Shown here piece after piece: positions 1,019 through 35,715 of a stretch of 64,000 bases of DNA. The DNA lies in NCBI RefSeq assembly GCF_000816845.1, contig NZ_CP006879.1, forward strand, positions 372,001 through 436,000. The letters are read 5' to 3'. Under the pieces are notes generated by a model. The model ran no database searches, was not told the origin of the DNA, and saw only the letters and a list, made by a program, of their open reading frames with translations. Position 1 is the first letter of the stretch; each line of letters opens with the position of its first letter. Both the position numbers and the translations under genes were made by a program. This DNA comes from Rhizobium gallicum bv. gallicum R602sp. Lineage in GTDB: Bacteria > Pseudomonadota > Alphaproteobacteria > Rhizobiales > Rhizobiaceae.

Positions 1019-2989
1019 TCAGGCCGAGTTCGGAGGAGCGATCCATGAATCCGGAACGAGTGCGTCACCATCCCGCCATTCGGCGATAGGCACGACGCCA
1101 ATGAGTTCTCCCCAAACGTCAGCGCCGGCATGGTCGAGCACAATTGCCTGCAACTGGCCCTTCGCAAGAACGATCTCGTCCGCGATGGCTGAGAACACTC
1201 CCCGGACGGCGGCAACGTCCTGATTGCGCGTTCGACCTGGCGCGTCCCGACCTGGTTTGTCAAACCCCGACGGGAAGTAGACCTGGCTTGGTTGGTCGTA
1301 CACAAGGAATCCCGGGACACAATGATCCGGAAGCTCCCTGAAGAAGCGCTGGAGCGACAGGGTTACCGCGACGTGGTAGGCGAGCCAGTTTGCGCCACTG
1401 CCGATTTCCCATAGGTAGTCCTTGCGGTCGGGATGCACGACGCGGACAGTCAGGTCGTCGATCAATACCTCAATCGGCGCATCAGGCCACTCGCCATCAA
1501 GCTTGGGCAGGATGGAGGCCGCAATTTTCGAGACATATAGCAGCGCGTTCTCGGTACGCCTGCGAACCTGCTGCTCGGAGTAAATCGCCTTCTGTTCTTC
1601 GATCAGGTCCTGCAGTCGACCAATCTCTTCCGCCTGCGTGCCACCATCCTCGGCGCGCTCGAATGTCTCGAGCGCCTGTTCCAGACGACCGAGGAAACGC
1701 TCAACTCTGTCTCTTCGGTAAGTTGCTTCCCTGACCTCGTCCGATCGGCGTTCGAGGATCGTGATCTCCTGGCGAACTGCGGCCAAGGCTTTCGTTGCCT
1801 CTTCAAGGTCCGACCTGATCCGTAGACGTTCCTTATCGAAAGAGTCGGATAGGCTCGGTTGCGTGCGCAACTGGATTTCAATTCCCGCCAGCGCCTGCAC
1901 GAGCGCGTCAATTTTCTCGCGACCATCCGCAAGCACCGCTATCGGGTCGCTGGCGGCTTCCGTCCTAGACTTGAGCCACTCCGCGATGTCCAGCCGGTCC
2001 TTCTGGATGCGAATAGCGCCGCCGTACTTTCGGCTGCTGTCTACAAGACGTTCCACCTCTCCGAGGTGTTGCCGGAGAATGGAGAGCCTCGCAGCGGTTT
2101 CTGATTCCCGGTTTTGCAAGACTTCGAGCTGACGGAGCGAGGGCTCGATCGAGTCGACGGTCGCGAATGATGTTCGAGTGTCGGCGCGCGTCGCCGCACG
2201 GAGGAGGTCTATCGTCTGGTTGGGCTCATCTTCGGGAATTGCCGTTCCCTGTGGGAGGAGCCCGAGCTCGAGCGCCTGTCTGAGCCACCCGGTGGTTTCC
2301 GCCTGCCAGGCACGGACCGCTTTCTTGACCGTAGACAAAGCGGATTCTGCTTGGCGAAGAATGCGCTGCAGGCGGTCAATCTCCCATCGCGCCGCAACCA
2401 TTTCCGGAGTCAAAGCACCGAGGACGTAGGGGAAAATAGCCTTTAGCTTCTCTCGATGTTCGGTCGTGTCCGCTCCGAAAAACAGGGCAAGCGGGTTCGC
2501 AACGATGTATTGAGGCTGGAAGTTGAATGCGATGAGGTCGCGAAAGCTTACCCGGCTTTGATAGGCCGCGTCCGCATCCGGATTGATCCGGAGCCGCGAC
2601 AGGCCGGACAGCTCGCCGAGCTTGCGTTTGACGATGTCCGCGTTCGTGTTCTTCTCGGTGATCCGATCGGGGATATCGATCTCGTCGCCTTCTAGGAGGA
2701 ACATGTCGCCGGTCTGCTTTGCCTCGCCAGGTTCCCGCCGAGCCAGAAGCTTTTTGCCTTCGAGGGTATCCACTACGATACCGAACCATTCGCAGGTATT
2801 GCGTATCGTCCCAACCGGAATGCTGCATTTGCCAGACGCCAGGCAGTAGTCGATAATTGGGATTACCGCTGATTTCCCGGTCTTTGACGCGCCGGTGATG
2901 ACGTTCACCATCCCGGGTTCGAAATGCAGGACACGCGGCGGATGATCAGCCTTGGGCCAGAGGATCAAGCTAAGAATCTGGAAATGCAT
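1019..2989 (-). CDS. SMC-like ATPase of an ABC-three-component system (DUF3732 family)
   Basis: About 656 residues. I chose the ATG at 2989 ([13 protein letters not shown]), the usual start of DUF3732 proteins; a GTG at 3007 would add six residues. Walker A is GASKTGKS (residues 33-40). A long central coiled coil rich in Arg/Glu/Leu follows (about 200-480). The C-terminal lobe holds GSGANW and [11 protein letters not shown], the family's signature and Walker B/D-loop region. It is an ABC/SMC-Rad50-like ATPase thought to sense nucleic acid and license an effector. It is the last gene of a three-gene operon: its ATG lies two bases after the middle-component stop. Family assignment is strong; the defence role is inferred. 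Confidence 0.85.
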
Positions 2990-2991
2990 GG

Positions 2992-3480
2992 TTAGGGTTC
3001 CACCCACAAAAGTGCGAAGGCCTGATCGAGCGATAGCCTGCCGAACCAGCGACCGAGCTTGTCTGCTCCGGCGACGTGGTACTTCAGCCGTTCGGGCGGT
3101 TTTGGGGGACGTGCTTCGTTACTCCGAAGCCTTCCCGTGTCGTAGGAAAGGTTCATCAATCCGCTGGAGATTGCCGCACCTACGGAGGACAGCGTTAGCT
3201 CCCGCATCTTCAGGGCACGCTCTTGCACCGCGATTAGAAGCTCGCGCTCCTCGCCCAGCTTTTTGGTGAACTGCGAAAGACCGGACGATTCGTAGGTGGA
3301 ACGGATGCGGTCAAGCGTGGGGGCGTGGTACAGGAGCGGGAGCACCACGAAGAACGAGTGTAACTGGGCGGCCTCGACCAATCGTTCTTGCTGATAGGAC
3401 TTTCCGAACCGCCAAAGTAGCATAGCTCCCAGCGCGGGATTCTGGACCAGCGCCACCGTAGAGAGAGGGGTGGTCGTCAT
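2992..3480 (-). CDS. Middle component of an ABC-three-component system
   Basis: 162 residues, all-helical in appearance ([21 protein letters not shown] near the start, [14 protein letters not shown] at the end). Small proteins of this size between an effector gene and a DUF3732 ATPase gene are the middle components of ABC-3C systems, which probably bridge effector and ATPase. The start overlaps the upstream stop as ATGA (3477-3480) and its stop lies just before the ATPase ATG, so the three genes are translationally coupled. The assignment rests on position and length more than on motifs. Confidence 0.7.
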
Positions 3481-4640
3481 GATGCCCCCTTGGGAAACAA
3501 GGTCTTATGATCGGGGTGCCAACCGACCCTACGGTCGTCGGCAAGGCAGTTGTACTCTCCAGCGACGAAGTAGGTGGGAAGACTCTGGCCTTCCAAGGGC
3601 ATAGTCAGATTGACGCACCGGCGATAAAGCTGCCTTCCCAGTTGCGGAGCGTCCAGATGCCCGTGGGTATCCGAAAGCTCATCAGAAGTCATTGCATGAT
3701 GGCGAATGAGAGACTCGTCAAGCTCGTCAAGACTGCTGTTGACGATACTGCCCGTGTCCGCCCAGGTGACCTTGTCGGCCATGGCTCTTAGGAAGTCGCT
3801 GACTGCGTTTGTCATGAGCGTATCCGAAGCCTCGACGGCCAGCAGTTGGCGCACAAAAGTCGGCTGACTGCTGAGAAGATCGGCAATCTGATCCTGGGCG
3901 GGCGCACCCGTGGTCGAGACCAGAAGCTTTGAAAAATCGTGCTTTCTGATGAACGCTCTCAGTTTACGCCGAAACACGACAGCGTCGAGGATCGGTGCCT
4001 TTTTTTTACGGATGAGACTATCGACGTCATCCTTTGCGATGCCGATCGCCGCAGCGCAATACTGGTCCAGGCTTTCCTCCGGAAGTGTCACAACCAGCTT
4101 TTGCGTGATCGCGTCGATCGGGTCTTCCTCAGTTTGCAATTCAAAGAGCCGTATGACCTTCAGACAGACTTCATCGCCGGCTTCGAGAAATTTGCTTATC
4201 AACGGCTCCACGCCGACACCCTTTTTGCCTTTGAAGGTCTTCGTCTTGAATTTCTTCAGCAGCGCGTCAGCCTTTGCAGCATCTCTGGCGTCATGCAATG
4301 CGTGAACGAGGTCGCCGACCTTCAGTGGGGTGACGTAAAACCGGAACGCGGTTGCTGGATCGAGAAGCGAGCCAGGAAGTGAAGCCCAGTTCGCGAGCGT
4401 CTTCCACAGTTCCGCAGACCTGTCCGAGGCGGGATTGCCCGACATCGCGCTTTTCGACTGCTCGAAGATCAATCCGCCGGATGGGTCATGGATCGCGATA
4501 TCGTCAAGTTGCTCAAGCGAGATCCGGCAGCCCTTGGCGACACTCATCAGATAGTAGCAGAGTCGAACGGGCTGAAGGCCATATCCGAGGTATTGACCGG
4601 GTACTGACGTCTTGAGTTTCGGATATTCGTCTAGCGACAT
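3477..4640 (-). CDS. Effector/nuclease-like component of an ABC-three-component system
   Basis: 387 residues. The N-terminus resembles the Cap4/DUF4297-type PD-(D/E)XK fold: a helix ending near residue 38, then E43, D46-D47 and Q61-S-K63 (ISLEQLDDIAI and FEQSKSAM), the spacing of an E-D-QxK active site. The remaining 300 residues are helical and charged and resemble C-terminal regions of ABC-3C effector proteins. It is the first gene of the operon, starting at ATG 4640. The inferred role is a dsDNA-directed effector kept off until the ATPase detects foreign or damaged nucleic acid. The nuclease call is from motif spacing only. Confidence 0.7.
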   Translation of the reverse strand: MSLDEYPKLKTSVPGQYLGYGLQPVRLCYYLMSVAKGCRISLEQLDDIAIHDPSGGLIFEQSKSAMSGNPASDRSAELWKTLANWASLPGSLLDPATAFRFYVTPLKVGDLVHALHDARDAAKADALLKKFKTKTFKGKKGVGVEPLISKFLEAGDEVCLKVIRLFELQTEEDPIDAITQKLVVTLPEESLDQYCAAAIGIAKDDVDSLIRKKKAPILDAVVFRRKLRAFIRKHDFSKLLVSTTGAPAQDQIADLLSSQPTFVRQLLAVEASDTLMTNAVSDFLRAMADKVTWADTGSIVNSSLDELDESLIRHHAMTSDELSDTHGHLDAPQLGRQLYRRCVNLTMPLEGQSLPTYFVAGEYNCLADDRRVGWHPDHKTLFPKGAS

Positions 4641-21534: not shown

Positions 21535-22784
21535 AGGCTCTCCTTAGCTGCGCTGCATGTTTTCACTGGTGCACAAAGCTTCCCGCTATGTCAGTCACCC
21601 TTGTCGGTGAGCCCGCATTGCTGACCGCACTATCAATACAGATCTGAGGCAACCCTGATATGACTCAGGTCTGCGGCGCCTGGGTAGCGACGACAGCGTT
21701 ACAAAAGTCGTGCCAGCTTTCGCCAAACAAGCCTCAAATGTTCTTACTTCATATTTGTCAAAAAGTTAGAACAGGGTGGCGGCTGAGCAGATCGAACACG
21801 ACCTTCTCTCGGACTCGCCTGAACCCGACAGTAGGTGTCGGTTGCGTGCAAAATCGGCCGTTACTTCGAAAGCCCGCGAATTTGTCCCTACGGTTCAGCG
21901 TGGAGGCGGTTGACCTGGGGATCGGAGAACTGTGCGACAGCTTTCTCGATCGGTCCGCGTCCATCGACGACAGGATCTCCCGCTCAATGTCGAACAAGGC
22001 ATCGATTGACCCGCCGCGAGCCAAATGAGATATCACTACCGCTTGTCGCAAAGCATTGCGACGTTGACAGGGATGAATAACTTGCGACGCGACCAAGATC
22101 GTCGTCCACCGTCTCAATGCGAGACCACGAGTACCGAGGCGCTGCTTTCGCGATTGTGCAGAACCTGGTGGACCGGCGCTGGAGAGGCCGCAACGGAAAA
22201 CAGCCTCTCCCTTCACGAGCACGTCATGGATACGAACAGTCGCCCAGGCCACGAATGCCACGGATGGAACCTGGGTCCCGTGGGGTGTTGTGTTGCCACG
22301 TTGTGCAACTATGCCGGTCGCACTCGTCGCTCGGGTACCGCACCCGGAGCGCTATGCACGGCCGCCGCAAACGCGCCAGCAGGCGGATCGAGAACCGACA
22401 CTCTGATTTGCCGTTGGATGAACGTACCTGTGGCAGGTCAGCCAGGCCTCGAATGCATCGCAATGCCGTCCAAGCAGTCGGAACGTGCAAATTCCGAGGC
22501 AATCCGCCCCTGATTCCGAAATGATCTCGCCCCCATCGGAGGCCCTCTTTCATGGTTCCATCGCAACCATTCTGGCACATCGATGCCTTCGAGTGGGGGC
22601 GTCAACCCCATCGCCTACGTCGAACTGACCGTTCGCGTCGGCGATCTCTTCGCCCTCTCGCAGCCTGCCGCGGATCGTGTGTGCCACTATCAAGGAAGGT
22701 AGCTGGTTTCGAGTTAAACGGCGAGGTTATTTTTACTCACGTCTAGCTGATGGTGCAGACGGAACACACCAATGGAGGCGGATA
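21535..22784. other. 1.2-kb region without a confident gene; possible IS66 trace
   Basis: No intact gene. On the minus strand near 21960-22080 the residues GGSIDALFDIEREILSSMDA resemble the IS66 TnpC stretch usually read as (R)IDALFDIEREIN, suggesting a worn transposase fragment. On the plus strand 22580-22700 a coding-like stretch (GGVNPIAYVELTVRVGDLFA) ends in a stop; no family recognised. The promoter of the ATP-grasp gene must lie in the last part, but I see no clear nod box or sigma-54 site. Confidence 0.35.
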
Positions 22785-24014
22785 ATGGCAAGTAGTGCGC
22801 TCATCCTGCTTGAAGGCCATACAAGGGGTGTTGGTCTACTTTACGTCCAAGCCGCCAAGCGGCTTGGTCTTCATCCGATCAACTTCGCGGCTGATCCAAC
22901 TATGTATGACTATCTTGCAGCGGAAAACATCGAGACAATCCGCATCGACACAGGCGACCTCAATGCGCTGATCCGCGAATGCTCCCGGCTACGTGCCATC
23001 TATGACATTGCTGGCATTACGAGCAGTGAGGAGGACGTCTATGCGACAGTTGCCAAGCTCTGTCGGCATTTTGATCTACCGGGCCCGAACCCGGCTTCAA
23101 TCGAACGATGCTGCGACAAGTTCACCCAACGTCAGCTCCTGAAGGAGGCCGGCGTCCCAATACCTGCTTATCGCTTAGCAGCGAAAGCGACGGACGTGGA
23201 AAGCGCTGCCGCGGAAATTGGTCTGCCGGTGATTCTCAAGCCGGCCGTCGGCTGCGGCAGCCGCGGTGTCCGGTTGTGCCGCACCGTCTATGATTTGCGT
23301 GACCACACGACCTATCTATTGGACGGCAAGCACAAATGGAAGACTCCGCCGAGGATACTGGTCGAAGAATTCGCAGAGGGCCCGCATTATAGCGCTAACA
23401 TCATGGGGAATGAGGTCGTTGGAATTGCCGCCGCTGACTTTGGCCCCCCACCGCATTTCGTCTATCACGAGTTTACCCTTCCGGCCGGGCTAACAGATGA
23501 AGAGCATGAGCGTGCCGCCGATGTTTCCCTGAGCTGCTTGCCAGCTCTAGGTCTTGGCTGGGGGCCAACGAACGTTGAACTTCGGTGGACGAAGCGTGGC
23601 CCACTAGTCATTGAAGTCAATCCGCGGCTTTCTGGCACCCCCGATCCTCAACTGGTTCACTTGGCTTACGGTGTCGACCTCATCACCGAGCACGTGAAGC
23701 TCGTCATCGGCGATGAATGTAATTTGCGCAGAAGGCATTCGCACACTGCGGCCGCGCGGATCCTAGTTCCTGACCGGGACGGCACTCTCGACTGGATCGG
23801 TGGCGACAGTCGGGCGGCTGCTGTAACCGGGATTGCCGAGGTCAAATTGTATGTTGAACCAGAAACGCCGATCATCCGGAAGGGCGATACCCGAGATTGG
23901 ATCGGACATGTCATCGCCGCTTCGCCTGGCGTCGCTGAGACCGGGGCGATACTTCAGCGTGCCGTTGACTTAATCGGCTGGTCGATCACACCATTCCCGC
24001 CGCTTAGCGAATAG
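22785..24014 (+). CDS. ATP-grasp enzyme (carbamoyl-phosphate-synthase-like ligase)
   Basis: 409 residues. ATG 22785 is preceded by GGAGG at good spacing; the frame open back to 22677 is not needed. N-terminal pre-ATP-grasp fold (1-110), then the ATP-grasp core: K152 in VILKPAVGCGSRGV with the glycine-rich loop at 157-161, LVEEFAEGPHYSA at 192-204, and metal ligands in NVELRW and VIEVNPRLSGTPD. Such enzymes join a carboxylate to an amine through an acyl-phosphate, as in peptide, cofactor or small-metabolite assembly. It stands alone here, so the substrate is open. Similar to y4rH of pNGR234a from memory. Confidence 0.85.
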   Translation: MASSALILLEGHTRGVGLLYVQAAKRLGLHPINFAADPTMYDYLAAENIETIRIDTGDLNALIRECSRLRAIYDIAGITSSEEDVYATVAKLCRHFDLPGPNPASIERCCDKFTQRQLLKEAGVPIPAYRLAAKATDVESAAAEIGLPVILKPAVGCGSRGVRLCRTVYDLRDHTTYLLDGKHKWKTPPRILVEEFAEGPHYSANIMGNEVVGIAAADFGPPPHFVYHEFTLPAGLTDEEHERAADVSLSCLPALGLGWGPTNVELRWTKRGPLVIEVNPRLSGTPDPQLVHLAYGVDLITEHVKLVIGDECNLRRRHSHTAAARILVPDRDGTLDWIGGDSRAAAVTGIAEVKLYVEPETPIIRKGDTRDWIGHVIAASPGVAETGAILQRAVDLIGWSITPFPPLSE

Positions 24015-27557: not shown

Positions 27558-27917
27558 TCAACGGCAAAGTTCAGCCGACAAATTCATATTGCCGCACCGG
27601 ATGGCGCACCATCGCGTCGAGATCAATGCCGTCGAGCAACCAGTGCAGTTGCTCGGCATCGAGCGGCACCACCGTCTCCTGCCGCCGCACCAGCGGAACT
27701 TGTCTTCCGTCAGCGCCTTCAACACCAGCACAAAGCCCGACCTATCGAAGAACAGCAACCAGGTGCGGCGGCGATTGCAGAAGGCAAACACCGCGCGCTC
27801 AAACGGATTGAGGCCAATAGACTGCTCGACCAGGATCGCAAGACTACTGATCCCGGCGCGAAAGTCGATCGGCTCCCGGTGGAGATAGACGCGCAGATCA
27901 TCAGCCAGCCGGAACAT
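27558..27917 (-). pseudogene. tnpB: IS66-1 tnpB, frameshifted near the end
   Basis: IS66 orf2: MFRLADDLRVYLHREPIDFR, AVFAFCNRRRTWLLFFDRSG and LVLKALTEDKFRW are typical. After FRW the frame is lost; the expected end (LHWLLDGIDLDAMVRHPVRQ) is readable in another frame. The start overlaps the tail of tnpA (stop 27901-27903), as in IS66-2. Confidence 0.75.
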
Positions 27918-27955
27918 CGCAACGCCCCAACGCTTCGATCATCGCCGACAGAACC
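27901..27955 (-). pseudogene. tnpA: IS66-1 tnpA, 3' piece
   Basis: Encodes the end of TnpA (LSAMIEALGRCDVPAG, stop 27901-27903). It is cut at 27955 by IS66-2. The preceding part lies on the other side of IS66-2 at 30529-30790. The last 8 bases (ACAGAACC on the plus strand) are the target duplication. Confidence 0.75.
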
Positions 27956-28024
27956 GTAAGCGCGATTTTCCCCGCACGTTGACGCCGCCTTTCGGCGTTT
28001 GATTTAGGAAAGCGTAGCGCTGGA

Positions 28025-29592
28025 TCAGGCGGCAGTGGCAGTTTTGGGGAAGTTGAAGGGCAGCAGGTCGGTGGTATCGGCGTCGTCGGCGCGCTGAGGC
28101 AATTCGGTGAGGACGTGGCGCAACCAGGCTAACGGCTCGACGCGCGAGGCGCGGCAGGTCAGCATCAGGCTGTAGACTACGGCACTGGCCTTGGCTCCAT
28201 CCACGGTGTCGCTGAACAGCCAACTCTTTCTGCCAGTGGCAAAGATTTTGATATCGCGTTCGAGAAGGTTGTTGTCGATCGGCATCCTGCCGTCTTCGGC
28301 GTAGCGCGTCAGATATTCCCATTGGTTCCGAGTGTAGGATACGGCATAGCCAAGCTTGCTGTCCGGCCTTCGGGGCGATTTTATCGAGCCATTCCTTGAG
28401 GGCGTTCAGGACGGGGATGCTATGTTGCTGGCGGAAGCGGCGAATGCATTGATCTGGCGTTTCGCCTCTGTCCGGTTTTTCGTCCCGCGCCTGCCTTTCA
28501 ACCCGGTAGAGCTGTTCGAAGAACCGGAGCGCCTGCTCCGGCGGACCGCCGCCCTTCTTCCTCGCCTTGAGGGCATCGACAAAGCGCCGCCTCGAATGGC
28601 CATGCATCCAATATGGGTTGCGCCCTCCAGTGTGCGCCAGGCGGAATAGCCGTCGCTTATCACTATACCGCGGTAATCGGCGAGAAAGGCCTGCGGGTCT
28701 ATCTGGCCGCGGCCCGGCTGATAATCGAGAAGCACGATCGGCTCGTCACTGTCCTCGCCACTCCGATATGCCCACATATACGATGTGCTGGTGGCCTCCC
28801 TATCCTTTCCTTCAGGACCTGAACCGTCGTCTCGTCGCCATGAATGAGGGGCTGTGATCTGAGCCGCAGTTTCAGTGCGTCATAGATGCGATGCAGATGC
28901 TTCTCGCTCGAGCCGATCACCCAGTGACCCAGAGCGCCTCGGCTGACAGGAACACCGGCGCGTTCGAAGGCCTGCGCCAGACGGTAGAGCGGTGTGCCGT
29001 CGACGTATTTGTGAACAAGAGCAAAGGCCAGCGTCGAGGCCGTAGCGATGCTGCCCGGCAAGGGCTGCGTCGGCATCGGCGCGGTCACAACAGGCGTGTT
29101 GATCCCGGTGCGGTCGCAATGACGGCAAGCATATTTGAACCGCACATTTTGTAGGACCTTAGCCTTCACCTCGATATGAAGTTGCTCGGTAACGGTCTCG
29201 CCCATGCGGTGCATTTGGCCGCGGCAGCAAGGACAAGCCTTCTGATCGTCGGGAAGGTCATACTCGACGCGCTCGCGCGGCAGATTTTGCGGCAAGGCCT
29301 TGCGGCCGCGCTTCTTTCCCGTCGCCCCTTCTGTCGCCGGCAAGCCCGTGTCTGGCAGGGCAACGACATCGCCATCTTCGTTGTCGGCGGCGTCCTCATC
29401 AGCGGCCTGTTCAGCTTCATTGGAGAGGCGGTCAATTTGCTTTTCACTCTTCGGCGCAAAACGATGCAGTCGTGCAAGCGCCAGCTCTTCCTCGAGTTTG
29501 ACGACGCGCTCTGTGAGCTGACGGTTCTCCGCCTGCAGCGCAGCAATACGCGCCATCAACTCTTCAACAGTCGGTTCGCCGGTTCGATTCAT
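28025..29592 (-). pseudogene. tnpC: IS66-2 tnpC, at least three frameshifts
   Basis: Starts MNRTGEPTVEELMARIAALQ at 29592. The N-terminal coiled coil, the Zn-finger (ACPCCRGQMHRMGE, YACRHCDRTG) and the DDE start are open to VIHGDETTVQVLKE-like sequence (here PLIHGDETTVQVLKE). Frames change near 28805, 28600 and 28345. The readable end is [20 protein letters not shown] with the catalytic Glu, then [17 protein letters not shown]. Length with lesions corrected is about 520 residues. Confidence 0.8.
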
Positions 29593-29645
29593 CGTAGTTT
29601 TGAATCTGAACCGTACCGCCGCGTCAACCGCAGAATTCGCCGCCG

Positions 29646-29999
29646 TCAGCCAGCAACCTGATATTGCCGCACCGGATGGCGAACCATCGCATCGATATCG
29701 ATGCCGTCGAGAATCCAGTGCAATTGCTCCGTCGTCAGCCGCATCACCGTTTCCTGACGCCGGGGCCAGCGGAACTTGTCCTCGGTCAACCGCTTCAGGA
29801 CCAGCACAAAGCCCGATCGGTCGAAGAACAAGAGCTTCATCCGATCGCGATGGCGATTGCAGAAGGCAAAAACCGCTGGAGCAAACGGATCGAGTGCCAT
29901 CGTCTCCTGGACCAGAACCGCAAGGCTGTTGATACCAGCCCGAAAGTCGATCGGTTCGCGATGCAGGTAGACCTGAAGGTCAGCGCCCAGTCTGAACAT
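29646..29999 (-). CDS. tnpB: IS66-2 TnpB, intact
   Basis: 117 residues: MFRLGADLQVYLHREPIDFR, AVFAFCNRHRDRMKLLFFDR, LTEDKFRWPRRQETVMRLTT and the end IDIDAMVRHPVRQYQVAG. Full length for IS66 orf2, a helper required for transposition whose biochemical role is unclear. Its start overlaps the end of tnpA (stop at 29980). Confidence 0.85.
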   Translation of the reverse strand: MFRLGADLQVYLHREPIDFRAGINSLAVLVQETMALDPFAPAVFAFCNRHRDRMKLLFFDRSGFVLVLKRLTEDKFRWPRRQETVMRLTTEQLHWILDGIDIDAMVRHPVRQYQVAG

Positions 30000-30528: not shown

Positions 30529-30790
30529 ACAGAACCTGAGCATCCGCATCTTCAAGCTCAGCCGTACACCGTTCGGCAGCGACGCCTTCAGCCGCACCCG
30601 TGGCGATGTCGGCCGAGCCGACGGAGCCGGCGGTCGCGCAATCGGCGCGGCCTCAACAACCGGAACAAAGGCCGACGGCGCGCAAGGCATTAGTGGTCAA
30701 CGCGTTCTCCGCCTGCCGGCGCGGACGCAGCCTGATCCAGTTGCGCAACTGATTGGCGTTCACCCCGTACTCGAGCGCAAGCCCTGCAAC
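30529..30790 (-). pseudogene. tnpA: IS66-1 tnpA, middle piece between two nested IS66 elements
   Basis: Reads LALEYGVNANQLRNWIRLRP and, after a frame change near 30690, FVPVVEAAPIARPPAPSARP and KASLPNGVRLSL. At 30790 it joins, across IS66-3, the first TnpA piece at 35606 (GVSVAG + LALEYG). At 30529 it joins, across IS66-2, the last piece at 27955. The two junctions were confirmed by the 8-bp duplications. Confidence 0.8.
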
Positions 30791-30812
30791 GTAAGCGGCA
30801 AGGCGAGGCCGT

Positions 30813-32394
30813 TCAGGCGGCGTAGTTCCACGGCATGAGTGCGTCGATTTCGCTGCTCGGCCAGCCATTGGCGATGCGCTCGAGGGTCTGGGTGAGCCAG
30901 GCAAGCGGATGACGTTGTTCATCTTTGCCGTCTGCACCAGCGTGGCGATGGTTGCCCAGCTCCTGCCGCCGCCGTCGCTGCCGGCGAAGAGCGAGTTCTT
31001 GCGTTTGCTCGCTCGACGATGTTGGAGTCGAGTTCGATGCGGCCGTCGGTGAGGAAGCGTTCGAAGATGGCGCGACGCGAGATGGCATAGCGGAGCGCCT
31101 CGGCCAGTTTCGATTTGCCGGAGATGCGCGGCAGGGTTTGCTGCCAGAGGGCGAAGAGGTCCGCGACGACTGCTGCAGAAGCCTCTTGGCGCGCCGCGGC
31201 ACGGGCATCGGGACCTTGGCCGCGCACGGTCTCTTCGATCTGCCAGAGCGTGGCCATCTTCTCCACCGTCGCCGTTGCAACCTTTGAGCTTTCGCTGGCA
31301 TGAAGCTCGTAGAACTTCCGCCGACTGTGTGCCCAGCAGCCTGCTAGCAAAACGCCGTCATGGCCGCGATCGGCGCGGACCAGCTTGTTGTAAGCGGCAT
31401 AGCCGTCGACTTGGAGAATGCCGCGGTAGCGGTTCAGATGCCGGGCGACACACTCGCCGGCTCTACTATCCTCGAAGCGATAGGCCACCATCGGCGGACC
31501 ACTGCCTCCGAAGGTCCGGTCATCCCTGGCATAGGCCCAAAGCCAGGCCGTCTTTGTCGATCCGGATCCAGGAGCGAGGGTCGGCAAAGTGGCTCGTCGG
31601 CGAAGATCCGCTCCCCCTTCTTGATCTCATCAAAGAGGTAGTCGGAGAGGATCTCGAGCTCGAACCCGAGCTTGCCCATCCATTGCGCCATCAGCTTGCG
31701 GTCGAGCTCGACCTTGTCGCAGGCGTAGATCGCCTCCTGCCGATAGAGTGGCAGGCCATCGGCATATTTGGAGACAGCGATCTGGGCCAGAAGCGCTTCC
31801 GTCGGAATGCCGCCCTCGATGATGTGTGCCGACGCCGATGCCTGGATGACGCCGTCCTCATTTTTGAGGCATACTTCGGCCGGCGATGACGCGGAACTTC
31901 GCCGGCACCACATCCAGCCGCTCCGACACGTCCTCGCCGATCAGCACCTTCTGCTTGCCGACATGTTCCGGCAGATCTTCAGGCTCGAGGACCACTTCGA
32001 CCCGCTCCAGATGCGGTGCGAAGCCCTTGCGCGGCCGCGGCGGACGTTTGCCTTCTGAGCGCTCGCGGCCTTTGTTGACCTGTGCCTTGATCGCGGCGAT
32101 GCCGGTCTCGATCTCCTCGAAGACAAAGGCCTGCTGCTCGTCGTCAGTGGTGGGGGAGCCGAGCTTTTCCGATCGGCGGCCGAAGCGGGCACGATCGAAG
32201 GCCTTCAGGATCTGCGTCAGCCGCTCGATGCGCTCATCGGCATCGGCATTGCGCGCCTTGAGATCAGCGATTTCGCTCTCCAGGGCATCGGCCCGCGCCG
32301 CCTTCTCGGCCATGGCAAGCACCATGGCTTTCAGCGCGTCAACATCGTCTGGGAGGTTGAGATCGGGCGGCGTCATCGTTTCGACAGAGCACAT
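30813..32394 (-). pseudogene. tnpC: IS66-3 tnpC, several frameshifts
   Basis: Starts MCSVETMTPPDLNLPDDVDA near 32394. FDRARFGRRSEKLGSPTTDD and EHVGKQKVLIGEDVSERLDV are open. A frame change near 31885 leads to NEDGVIQASASAHIIEGGIP and DLFDEIKK-like DYLFDEIKKGERIFADE. A change near 31600 leads to TAWLWAYARDDRTFGGSGPP, LQVDGYAAYNKLV and the Glu region ELDSNIVERA. A change near 31010 leads to the end WLTQTLERIANGWPSSEIDA, stop 30813. It is a different IS66 subtype from IS66-1 and IS66-2. Confidence 0.8.
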
Positions 32395-32449
32395 TTTGCT
32401 CCGGTTTTCCTGCCCTTTCAGGCTGCTGATTCACTTCGCCGCAGGGCTT

Positions 32450-32651
32450 TTACCCAACAATCTCCGGCGGCTTGACCGGCACGGCCCGAACCCGCTTCCA
32501 ATCCATGCCATCGATGAGCGTCAGAAGCTGAGCATGGTTAAGCTGGATCCGATTATGGCCGATCCGCGGCCAGCAGAACTGCGATTTTTCCAACCGCTTG
32601 GCGTAAAGGCAGACGCCAGAGCCGTCCCACCAGACGATCTTGACTCTGTCC
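32450..32651 (-). pseudogene. tnpB: IS66-3 tnpB, 3' half
   Basis: Encodes DRVKIVWWDGSGVCLYAKRL, FCWPRIGHNRIQLNHAQLLT and the end VRAVPVKPPEIVG. Joined to 35251-35393 with one copy of the GC dinucleotide removed, it gives exactly 345 bases (114 residues and stop) with the standard sequence across the joint (RAKRADRVKIVWW). So only the insertion disables this gene. Confidence 0.9.
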
Positions 32652-32681
32652 GCACAGTGCGCTTCATAATGCATCCCTCTG

Positions 32682-34766
32682 TTAGAGTCCGGGCAATCGG
32701 ACAACTTTATCATATTGATAATCCTCGTAAAACTTCGGGCGTCGATCGACGACACCCTGCACCCCTATCCGGACGGCTTCCGAGGATAATGCTTCGACGG
32801 GAACCATCCACGGCGAGCCTGGAAGGATTTGCGTTGCGGGTAAAATTCCTCTCTGCACCAGGCTCTTAGCCGATCCGACACAAATGCCGAGTTTCTCCGC
32901 CGCTTTCATCAAGCTGATCATCGGTACGTCCACTTTGGTGGCATCGTATTCGGGAATTGCTAGGCGCTCGCGCATGTCGCGGACACGTACGGTCGTCCAA
33001 CTCTCGCCATCACCGGTCTTGCAGTGCATTCTATTGAGCGACACCGCAAGTTCCCGATCTGGCCATGTCCACCCAGTTTGCGCAGGGCCTCGACTGCCGA
33101 CGGCGCCATCTCACTCGGATATCTGCCGGTCTTGACGCGCGCGACGCGGACCTCAGTATGACGACCACCGGTCCAATGGATTAATAGCACGGCCTCGTTG
33201 GTCGCATTGTCGAGATTGCAGACGATCTCCTGAACCAGGATATGGATAAGCCGCTGTTTCGTTCGAGTATCTGTAGCTGTCGCATTCCATGCGGTCGGCA
33301 GATCATGAGCGAGTTGCAGGAGCCGGCCACGATCGATGGCAGGGCGTGCGGCTGACAAGGCGGACAATTCCTTGATCTTCTGCTCAAGCACCTTCACACG
33401 CTCCAGCGCATCATTCCATCGCGCTTCCAACTCACGAGCGACATGCCGCTTGGCTGGGTCCACAAGCTCATACCTGCGACTGGCCAGCAGGGCGTCGTAG
33501 CGTGCGCCTTCGAGGTCCCGCTCGATTGCCGCAATGATGTCTCTTTGGGACCGCTCGACTTGATCGGAGGCGAATATTGCCGCTTCGACGGCACGATCCG
33601 ACACCGCTTCCAGAATCTGGAGGGCGACAGCGCGGTCGACCCTGACGCCGCCAATGCCGATACAAAGGCCGACACCCACATGAGCATCATCGCCGCGGCA
33701 CTGATATCGATGGGCGTTGCCTTTTGCACTGCCGTAAAAGACGCGCATCATTCGGCCACAGCGGCCGCATCGCATCAGTCCCGTCAAAAGAGCACGGCCG
33801 CCACGCGCTGATTTGCGATCGCAATTCTTCTTCATGTGCGCGTTCTCAGTCAGGAGCTTGTAGTTCTCCTCATACTCCCGCCAACTGATGTAACCTTGAT
33901 GATTATCGCGCAGCAGCACGCTCCATTCGCCCCGGGGTTTACGCACCCCAGTGGCCTTGCGAGCGCGACCATCGACGATCCGCGTTCGCTGCGCGCGTCT
34001 TCCGAAGGCGTAGGCGCCCGCATAGAGTGGGTTGTGGAGGATCTGCATGACGCTGTGGTAGGCTGGCGCTTTCCAGACTAGTTTGCAGACGTCGACATTG
34101 CGCAGGACGACAGGCATCTTGATATCGGCCGACCGCCAAAAAGACCTGTCGTCCGCTTCCCAGTTCCCGGAATTTGGTAAAGACAAGCCTGATCGTCTCA
34201 GCTACGTGTTCGTCCGGATCAATCTCTATCTTGCCCACCTCGCTCCAGCACAAGCCCGGAGGCAGCATGAACCTTAGTTCCCCACGTCCGGCCTTGGAAT
34301 CGCGGGCGGCGATGCCGCGTTGTCGCATCAAGCTAAGCTCGTACTCCGACATCGTGCCTTTCAATCCAAGCAGCAAACGATCGTTGACAAGCCGCGGATC
34401 ATAGGCGCCGTCCGGATCGATGACCAGCGTACCAGCAAGCGCGCAAAGGTCGATCAGATGATGCCAGTCCCTACCATTGCGCGCCAAGCGTGATGCCTCG
34501 ATGCAATAGACCGCACCCACATCGCCGGAGCAGACCTGTGCCACAAGCCGTTCGAACCCAGGGCGCTCCATGCTGCCCGAACCGGAACGGCCAAGATCGT
34601 CATCGATTACGGTCACCGATGCAAAGCCGGTCGTTGTGGCAGCTCCAGCAAGGTCATACTGCCGACGCTGGCTTTCGAGATTACTGGTGACCTGCGTCAT
34701 AATCGACTGCCGGACGTAGACCACAGCCGCACGTCCCAGATGGTCAGGCGTGATCTTCGTGTTCAT
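32682..34766 (-). pseudogene. Large serine recombinase, two frameshifts
   Basis: From ATG 34766: the N-terminal resolvase domain has VVYVRQSIMTQVTSNLESQR with the catalytic Ser, then DDDLGRSGSGSMERPGFERL and EASRLARNGRDWHHLIDLC. A frame change near 34135 (after SGRQVFL) leads to the Recombinase domain (MQILHNPLYAGAYAFGR), a zinc ribbon (LTGLMRCGRCGRMMRVFYG, YQCRG) and a coiled coil. A second change near 33055 leads to the C-terminal region with a HTH-like segment (KAAEKLGICVGSAKSLVQRG), ending VVRLPGL at 32682. About 690 residues when repaired, normal for this rhizobial family. Confidence 0.85.
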
Positions 34767-34929
34767 TTACGCCTCCCGTCTTCGTCGTTGTGTTTACCTC
34801 CAATGCCTCCAGCAGAAGATCTGCCAACGCCTCCACCAACCCCTTGACGTTCTTGACCGGCACCTGATGATTTTGGCGCTCCAGCTCCAGGACGAGCTGA
34901 TCGCGATTTTGATGTCGCCTGCTTCGCAT
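34744..34929 (-). CDS. Small protein of the serine-recombinase element (61 aa)
   Basis: ATG 34929 with AAGGAG seven bases upstream. It reads MRSRRHQNRDQLVLELERQN, then VKNVKGLVEALADLLLEALE, a helical core resembling small partner proteins found before such recombinases. It overlaps the recombinase start by 23 bases (translational coupling likely). A directionality or assembly factor is a guess. Confidence 0.55.
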   Translation of the reverse strand: MRSRRHQNRDQLVLELERQNHQVPVKNVKGLVEALADLLLEALEVNTTTKTGGVNEHEDHA

Positions 34930-35250
34930 CACCCTTCTCCTTCTTCTTTGAAGGACGGGATCTTGCGCCTCCTTTGCGAGTCGCGCCGAACGACGCCAGC
35001 GCGGCCGCCAGTTCGTTGAGGCCAGCGATGCTGATCTCAGGCAGCCCTAGCGCCATGGTGGAGCAGTAGCTTTGATCGAACATCCAATTCGGCAATTCGC
35101 GGCACAGATCCGGACGCTCATTCGTGTAGATGCAGGTCAAACTCTTGCCGCGTCTAAACGGCGAGACCTGCACCTTCTTCCCGAACAGCGGGTGCCAAGG
35201 ATAGGCAATCGTCGAAAAGCGAGAAACGTATGCAGAATGTCGGTCGTTGG
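34930..35250 (-). CDS. DUF5372-like protein of the serine-recombinase element (start uncertain)
   Basis: The frame from about 35235 downwards reads SRFSTIAYPWHPLFGKKVQV, CIYTNERPDLCRELPNWMFD and LPEISIAGLNELAAALASFG, then a lysine-rich tail (RPSKKKEKGDAK). The HPLFGK and P-x-WMFD pattern matches DUF5372 proteins that accompany this recombinase type (from memory). The frame stays open to 34763 through the next gene, where it is probably an overlap artefact. The start is not clear: the frame runs back across the insertion point into tnpB. Confidence 0.5.
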
Positions 35251-35393
35251 GCCCGTTTGGCCCGGAAGACGTAAAGCGCACCGTTGAACGGATCATTGCC
35301 GGCATCCCGCACCAGCGACAGCAAGCTGTCCGGGCCTTTGCGGAAGTCCACCGGATGACTGGCGAGGAACACCTTCACGCCGGAGGGGATCAT
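35251..35393 (-). pseudogene. tnpB: IS66-3 tnpB, 5' half
   Basis: MIPSGVKVFLASHPVDFRKG to NGALYVFRAKRA, then interrupted by the serine-recombinase element. The ATG overlaps the tnpA stop as ATGA (35390-35393), the coupling typical of IS66. Confidence 0.9.
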
Positions 35394-35521
35394 GCCGAAC
35401 GGACCGCCCGGATCACCCGCTGCAAGTGCGCCTCGTCGACATCTGCGCCGGCGCGCACGACAATGTCGCCAAGGACAACCTCGATATGGAAGGTTCTAGT
35501 TCCAGAACTAGGCGCAGACAT
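35390..35521 (-). CDS. tnpA: IS66-3 TnpA, unusually short (43 aa)
   Basis: ATG 35521: MSAPSSGTRTFHIEVVLGDI, VVRAGADVDEAHLQRVIRAV, end RSA with stop overlapping tnpB. This is only the C-terminal third of a usual IS66 TnpA. The N-terminal HTH is missing even though the element's terminal repeats are intact, so there is an internal deletion of about 250 bases between the right end and this gene. Confidence 0.6.
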   Translation of the reverse strand: MSAPSSGTRTFHIEVVLGDIVVRAGADVDEAHLQRVIRAVRSA

Positions 35522-35605
35522 AGAAGCTCACTTCGGCTCACAACGTGCGCTATCGATATCCGACCGCTAACCCCCTACGCCAGACGGGGTCCCCTTGCCG
35601 CTTAC

Positions 35606-35715
35606 CCTGCAACCGACACCCCCGGCTCAAAGCATGCATCGATCAAGCGCTCTTCCTCGACCGGATCAAACCGCCGCTTACCATTACGAAGAGGCATTTT
35701 CCGCGGCTGCTTCAT
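35606..35715 (-). pseudogene. tnpA: IS66-1 tnpA, 5' piece
   Basis: ATG 35715 (MKQPRKMPLRNGKRRFDPVE, then RLIDACFEPGVSVAG), the start of an IS66 TnpA HTH protein, cut at 35606 by IS66-3. It continues at 30790 (LALEYGVNANQL). The left truncation of IS66-1 is at 24911 and its own right end must lie shortly above 35715. Confidence 0.8.

Follow-up and report, generated by a model that had tools for sequence, protein, structure and literature searches.

How does a gene for a large serine recombinase come to lie within the tnpB gene of an insertion sequence (IS), and is such a place an accident of landing or a site to which the element keeps? The question is raised by a 64,000-nucleotide stretch of Rhizobium gallicum bv. 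gallicum R602sp (contig NZ_CP006879.1, positions 372,001 to 436,000; hereafter the window), in which an IS66 tnpB gene on the minus strand is split by a 2597-bp element (32654..35250, minus strand) lying between two GC dinucleotides. We consider it highly probable that this element is a broken copy from a family of minimal large-serine-recombinase elements whose tropism for fixed codons in transposon genes has persisted, with the target inherited by clade.

Removal of the element restores tnpB

The N-terminal part of the split gene (35251..35393, minus strand) comprises codons 1-47 and, as the core, the first two bases of codon 48, and matches positions 2-46 of PF05717; the C-terminal part with its stop (32450..32651, minus strand) matches positions 43-100. 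When 35250-32652 was deleted in silico, the 143 bases from 35393 to 35251 and the 202 bases from 32651 to 32450 came together as a 345-bp tnpB with an unbroken frame of 114 residues. An earlier reading of the DNA made from its letters alone (the sequence-only reading) had arrived at the same gene, with a GC dinucleotide at either end (left core 35251..35252, right core 32652..32653, both minus strand) and the usual TnpB sequence across the joint, and our recomputation bears it out on each point. Used as a query, the joined gene found matches in 338 plasmid records, 152 of which cover at least 80% of it, and the empty sites that the same reading proposed to look for thus exist as uninterrupted tnpB genes. 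Best among these was the tnpB of S. meliloti HM006 psymA, with 95.4% identity over all 345 bases and no gap, and in two uninterrupted genes (L119 and L120) the 32 bases that span the joint are identical to the joined gene. The target in the window is a TnpB codon flanked by KR (RR elsewhere) and D, which we take to be a conserved position of IS66 TnpB at large.

Relatives and the target codon

A blastn search with the element and its flanks gave some match in 457 plasmid records and a match over at least 80% of the query in 35, and with the intact recombinase of a related locus, L002, as query, tblastn matched 267 plasmid records at E up to 1e-100; identity reaches 60% or more in 59 of these. 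A scan of species genomes gave 141 relatives, and the best 80 of the 141 were kept. In sampled whole genomes the recombinase family is sparse, being found in 15 of 397 genomes of the order (E up to 1e-100) and 3 of 394 of the family (E up to 1e-200), with the window genome counted in both and at most two candidates per genome scored among the matches listed. Members of the clade come from Rhizobiaceae, other Alphaproteobacteria, Burkholderiaceae, Nevskiaceae and Verrucomicrobiota, though several are metagenome bins whose placement may be wrong (e.g., L017, labelled Actinobacteria).

Already in tblastn with the two halves of TnpB, the N-terminal half was found on one side of the element and the C-terminal half on the other in many loci, and this in both orientations. 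For the junctions themselves we used 88 loci, namely the window, six duplicates (one of them, L207, overlaps L012) and 81 relatives, of which 16 came from a query holding about 200 bases of tnpB on each side and 65 were found by recombinase sequence alone. Conserved end sequences located the ends, and the flanks were then tested in the frame of the core codon; the junction rules were regular expressions tuned on the first loci, and the right-side calls of L029, L056 and L127 were corrected by eye. Two junctions were runs of N. Among the 132 readable ones of the 81 relatives, 123 lie at the same TnpB codon, after RR or a like pair and before D (91/100 in the loci found by recombinase alone, 32/32 in those from the tnpB-flanked query), and random positions of the same loci passed the left-side test in 755 of 19,969 cases (3.8%) and the right-side test in 841 of 19,964 (4.2%). 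With 123 of 132 junctions at one codon against a chance rate of about 4%, the site is no accident, and the compared sequences indicate that IS66 tnpB is the fixed target of the clade to which the window element belongs, rather than an incidental landing place. Both junctions were recognised in 48 relatives, with one TnpB half on each side in 45, two N-terminal halves in 2 (L037, L052) and two C-terminal halves in 1 (L003); one junction was recognised in 27 and none in 6. Not every locus is an independent insertion, for the 76 in which a junction was recognised (counting the window) make 63 groups when sorted by flank. Moreover, the same codon is kept by recombinases just 56-63% identical to that of L002 or L034.

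Ends, cores and orientation

Within the cores lie the left end (35228..35250, minus strand; CCAACGACCGACATTCTGCATAC) and the right end (32654..32676, minus strand; GGATGCATTATGAAGCGCACTGT), which form imperfect inverted-repeat half-sites. Here the sequence-only reading, which had seen no inverted repeats, was mistaken: across 43 elements, the 23 bases beside the core at the left and right ends share a mean of 12.2 matches in register, as against 1.9-7.3 in six shifted registers. Their consensus reads GTATGC.GAATGTCG.T.G.TGG at the left end (reverse complement) and GGATGCATTATGAAACGC.CT.. at the right. That reading had also given the exact ends of the element and expected other copies to have the same ends and a GC core; the ends are indeed common to the relatives, though the core is GC in some lineages only, and GG, CC, CG or AA elsewhere.

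In 38 of the 49 loci with two recognised junctions (window included), core and orientation agree between the ends. These are made up of GG cores (14 forward, 1 inverted), CC (8, all inverted), GC (6 forward, 2 inverted), CG (3 forward, 3 inverted) and AA (1 forward). According to passages of PMC3783163 (citing Ghosh 2003 and Smith 2004), synapsis by serine integrases takes place in either alignment, but strand exchange is efficient only in the one that is parallel with respect to the central dinucleotide; a palindromic core is therefore predicted to leave the orientation free. For glycine codons a GG core goes with the forward orientation by necessity, and hence we looked at flips among close relatives. 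Where two elements are at least 85% identical, the pair is discordant in orientation in 13 of 33 cases with palindromic cores and in 0 of 55 with other cores, and with one locus per flank group and orientation the figures become 8/21 and 0/25. Because the pairs are not independent, and because a count by element clusters gives mixed orientation in 1 of 3 multi-member clusters with palindromic cores, as against 0 of 7 with other cores, the comparison is suggestive of an orientation that is set by the core and is free where the core is palindromic.

Signs of movement

Several pairs of near-identical elements part from each other at the ends of the element. L006 (M. huakuii) and L013 (Mesorhizobium sp. 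AR07) have 2613 bp in common at 99.85% identity, a stretch as long as the element itself, and the two lie in tnpB in opposite orientations; their IS66 sequence also matches elsewhere, at 88%. On a single Sinorhizobium medicae plasmid, L126 and L205 are alike over 1339 bp at 99.8%, stopping at the right core, and L005 and L208 are identical over 1956 bases, again up to the right core.

Could the element instead have entered an ancestral IS66 once and spread since as a passenger, by IS66 transposition and homologous recombination between tnpB genes, with no part played by its own recombinase? In the window, the whole IS66 copy with the element inside (30791..35605, minus strand), whose terminal repeats begin GTAAGCGGCAAGG (GTAAGCGG), is enclosed as one composite by a perfect 8-bp duplication, CCTGCAAC, outside both IS66 ends (30783..30790 and 35606..35613). 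L013 and L015 have IS66 flank and element in common (98.3% over 4786 bp), and so copies can also spread with their host IS66, a point that counts against movement by the recombinase in every case; around L015, a search for a pair of terminal repeats with an 8-bp duplication found none. The doubled N-terminal halves in L037 and L052 and the doubled C-terminal halves in L003 point to exchange between copies. Such passive spread does not account for both orientations at the same codon, for split tnpB genes that differ widely, for near-identical elements in unlike flanks with identity ending at the element ends, or for sister clades at other codons and in other genes (see below), and we judge it improbable.

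Genes carried by the element

The element holds, in this order, a gene for a DUF5372-like protein (conserved part 34928..35206, minus strand; its true start is unsure, the open frame running from 35305 to 34763), a 62-codon small gene (34744..34932, minus strand) and a large serine recombinase (32682..34766, minus strand). In comparison with L002, L003 and L006, the recombinase of the window, which is covered by three separate matches, lacks 5 bp near 34136 and 1 bp near 33065; the window copy is therefore very likely dead. The compact unit that the sequence-only reading had described, probably one that moves by serine recombination, stands with its exact ends and 2-bp core, but the window copy itself is broken; likewise, its label of DUF5372-like fits the family, but the recombinase that it listed is not intact.

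Uninterrupted recombinase genes of 2091 bases are present in L002, L003, L004 and L006, and domain scans were made on L002 and L004, as the window recombinase is broken. PF00239 (Resolvase) and PF07508 (Recombinase) score above the cut-off in both, and PF13408 (Zn ribbon) scores above it in L002 and below it in L004. The Resolvase domain, at 14-163, is placed ahead of the others, and a weak HTH_17 stretch is seen near the C-terminus. Near the C-terminus of a sister recombinase, L134, there is a match to an excisionase family (E 2.7e-4), and an excisionase-like helix-turn-helix fused to the recombinase in this way may act as a built-in directionality factor. A YxRxS stretch with the catalytic serine, together with active-site arginines, is a motif of large serine recombinases, and Y17, R19, S21, R93 and R96 are invariant in 31 of 31 aligned relatives. 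An alignment of four recombinases gave no match among PDB sequences at 1e-5. Phage origin was considered and rejected, since the 43 phage records that match the recombinase are all below 60% identity and none reaches 80% coverage. Identity as XisF, the recombinase type of the fdxN element, was rejected too, the match having an E value of 3.3e-22 but 79 bits against an NCBIfam equivalog cut-off of 375.

This distant XisF likeness, with the exact restoration of the gene on removal, would suit a skin- or fdxN-like interruption that silences IS66 until programmed excision restores tnpB. Insertion in either orientation, a decayed host in the window and sister elements in other IS genes fit a parasite better, and we regard a regulatory role as very improbable.

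Upstream of the recombinase, a search pattern for the DUF5372-like protein (HP, two residues each from a set, G) was matched in 92 of 161 loci; these belong to clades A, B, D and E as well as others, and a few of the matches are spurious. In 27 aligned copies, Y..HP..G and WM are kept, and 16 of the 27 match PF17342 (DUF5372) at E up to 1 (best 4.9e-7); the protein of the window has no match in Pfam. A structure model of the DUF5372-like protein is of middling confidence (predicted local distance difference test 73.6, predicted template modelling score 0.40) and gave no match among PDB structures at E 0.001 or better. The Cupriavidus locus L135 is annotated as DUF5372, DUF6788 and recombinase, with strong Pfam matches (PF17342 at 5.8e-29). 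The 62-residue protein of the window corresponds to the DUF6788 protein of L135 by position alone, with no match to PF20586 (DUF6788). Our guess would be that the small proteins help excision.

Sister clades at other sites in transposon genes

Recombinases of the sister clades are about 40-46% identical to that of L002, and each named clade has a site of its own. Clade B (16 loci, with a tnpC match beside each) lies in IS66 tnpC near an RKN motif, clade C (4 loci) in IS66 tnpC near LFAGS, clade D (6 loci, from Verrucomicrobiota bins) at a second tnpB site, near a KRL motif of IS66 tnpB, and clade E (14 loci) in IS3 orfB. By eye, the right flank of clade E has the ending of an IS3 transposase in 11 of the 14 loci (WR or WI in eight, RYL in three); L185 has no IS3-like end, and L114 and L115 are unreadable. 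Two joined pairs of flanks gave back the target protein, IS66 TnpC in L104 (with a GC core at the joint) and IS3 OrfB in L136 (with a TA core). For the remaining 13, the longest frame did not amount to the complete target gene or included extra residues, and their junctions are therefore approximate. Several of the flanks of 26 loci outside the named clades also resemble IS genes by eye.

When a tree was built from 110 recombinases, the rows labelled B, C, D and E were each confined to one side of one branch with 100% support in the Shimodaira-Hasegawa-like approximate likelihood-ratio test. All seven labels are accommodated with the minimum of six changes, and 0 of 200 shuffles were as good; label A needs two changes because L031, within A, had no recognised junction. 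A still wider claim, to which we give an even chance, is that the whole lineage is specialised on transposons, each clade having settled on a different codon (IS66 tnpB twice, IS66 tnpC twice, IS3 orfB and a transposase of another kind). Site switches would then have given rise to the clades, core dinucleotides would drift with the target codon, and palindromic cores would land either way.

Two clade B copies, L169 and L170, lie in opposite orientation on a Microvirga ossetica plasmid (NZ_CP016617, about 115-123 kb and 163-171 kb). L169 is flanked on either side by N-terminal parts of tnpC and L170 by C-terminal ones, a pattern that would result if the two copies had recombined with each other and inverted the roughly 46 kb that separates them.

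Least credible of all is a loose choice of target, by which insertion would occur near any short motif and the preference for IS66 would be an effect of its abundance. Core dinucleotides do differ between lineages, and for many relatives beyond the clade no target was assigned; against it stand the single codon shared by 91 of 100 junctions among loci identified from the recombinase sequence alone, and the keeping of that codon by quite divergent recombinases.

Weighing of the evidence and a proposed cycle

Several observations tell against a tropism for fixed IS codons exercised by the recombinase of the element, or limit its reach. The case is built on sequence comparison, and the window copy is itself broken. 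Nine of the 132 junctions were not recognised as tnpB, and joining the flanks did not give back exact junctions for clades C and D. No target could be assigned to 31 of the 110 recombinases in the tree, and the IS-gene tropism therefore holds for the named clades and not for the family as a whole; for clade E, moreover, the tree test is partly circular, because two of its 10 rows (L114 and L185) were labelled by recombinase alone. The insertions of L014, L039 and L084 leave a proline codon in tnpB, which the simple core rule does not explain. Lastly, core or orientation disagree between the ends in 11 of the 49 two-junction loci, through single changes (GG/GA in L002), GG/GC or CC/GC pairs, and halves that show exchange between copies; some of these are mutations and some may be rearrangements.

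L123, L019, L130 and L047 have unlike cores at the two ends of one element (GG/GC or CC/GC), where a mismatch between donor and target core was possibly resolved differently at either end.

On balance, we favour a family of self-moving elements with fixed codons in IS genes as targets. In each element, imperfect inverted-repeat half-sites of about 23 bp enclose the genes for a large serine recombinase (about 696 residues), a DUF5372-like protein and a small protein. The recombinase, perhaps with help from the small proteins, would cut at the 2-bp cores and join them, whereby the element would leave as a circle with a single core between its half-sites and the split gene would be restored. The circle would then recombine with a fixed codon of an IS gene (tnpB in the present case), again at a 2-bp core. 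With codons that IS genes keep as its target, the element would find targets in many hosts, spare host genes and possibly travel with the IS.

If this is true, some mobile elements are parasites of others and reach them through codons that transposon genes keep, with many targets and little damage to the host. The set of core dinucleotides found at one codon would make the rule that the core sets the orientation testable in nature, and each clade would be a source of recombinases with known and distinct target sites. It would also explain the 'recombinase family protein' that stands beside a broken IS66 tnpB in many rhizobial plasmid records.

The host IS66 copy and its surroundings

The host IS66 of the window is decayed, yet its 8-bp target duplication is still there. 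Of tnpA, only the C-terminal end is left (35390..35491, minus strand, by eye), and the tnpC remnant (30813..32394, minus strand) extends over three frames. More IS66 genes are found at 27684-29975 of the window: tnpB is matched at G000:C3:399684-399893 and at 401685-401975, and in a tnpC frame (28699-29592) the DDE match ends at position 83 of 284.

By DNA, the window genome has one copy of the element. A C-terminal remnant of a distantly related recombinase lies elsewhere in it (G000:C1:3088801-3089205, L102), with an open-frame tnpB match 1.6 kb away, and at G000:C3:464326-464448 (L098) a tnpB breaks off near the target codon, with no element end seen beyond. Farther off in the window, adjoining genes with DUF3732 and CTD7 of ABC-three-component systems (1019-4640) possibly form such a system, and an ATP-grasp enzyme with an L-amino acid ligase C-terminal domain is found at 22677-24014.

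Comparison with known systems

In the literature searched, we found no description of this element family, which is weak evidence as subscription journals lay mostly outside its coverage. Large serine recombinases are well known from phages and from transposons such as Tn4451 and Tn5397. With these, the present family has in common the domain order, the 2-bp core and a pseudo-palindromic attP. DUF4368, associated with transposases of the TnpX/TndX type (Durrant et al. 2022, PMC10083194, in the passages seen), has no match in L002 and L004, the two proteins scanned, and, unlike in Tn4451 and Tn5397, the target here is a transposon gene. The string IS66 is absent from the main text of the survey of large serine recombinases by the same authors. 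Passages of PMC2864759 describe the rit elements of C. metallidurans CH34, which resemble the window element as small recombinase elements of which one copy inactivates an IS66 gene, but they have three tyrosine recombinases, and a fixed target is not described in those passages. In the IS607 family, as portrayed in parts of PMC4058570, a serine transposase likewise mobilises a small element, though with inverted domain order and minimal target specificity, whereas here the catalytic domain comes first and the target is strict.

A cluster on pNGR234a (NC_000914, 33989-37258) has a DUF5372 gene, two small genes and a 694-residue recombinase, and bears the name 'Y4bD/Y4pK family' in the Prokaryotic Genome Annotation Pipeline. 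Its genes are presumably those named y4bA-D. Like the window element, it has the DUF5372 gene upstream of a large recombinase, and by eye it splits a transposase-like frame at NTPQAK|GRVERANQT; unlike it, the cluster has two other genes between, and its recombinase, 95% identical to L191, belongs to another clade ('other' in the tree).

Helper-embedded phage-inducible chromosomal islands (PICIs) use a tyrosine integrase. These satellites, which lie in prophage late genes, are the closest published analogue that we found, and passages of Tommasini et al. 2023 (PMC10111431) describe for them an integrase clade with site-specific subclades that repeatedly target such genes. The elements described here differ in being 2.6 kb in length, in having a serine recombinase, in lying in IS genes and, for the window copy, in holding no phage genes. 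To judge from the same passages, both have subclades that each use one site in the genes of another mobile element, and in both the target gene is split, with an attP that supplies no replacement.

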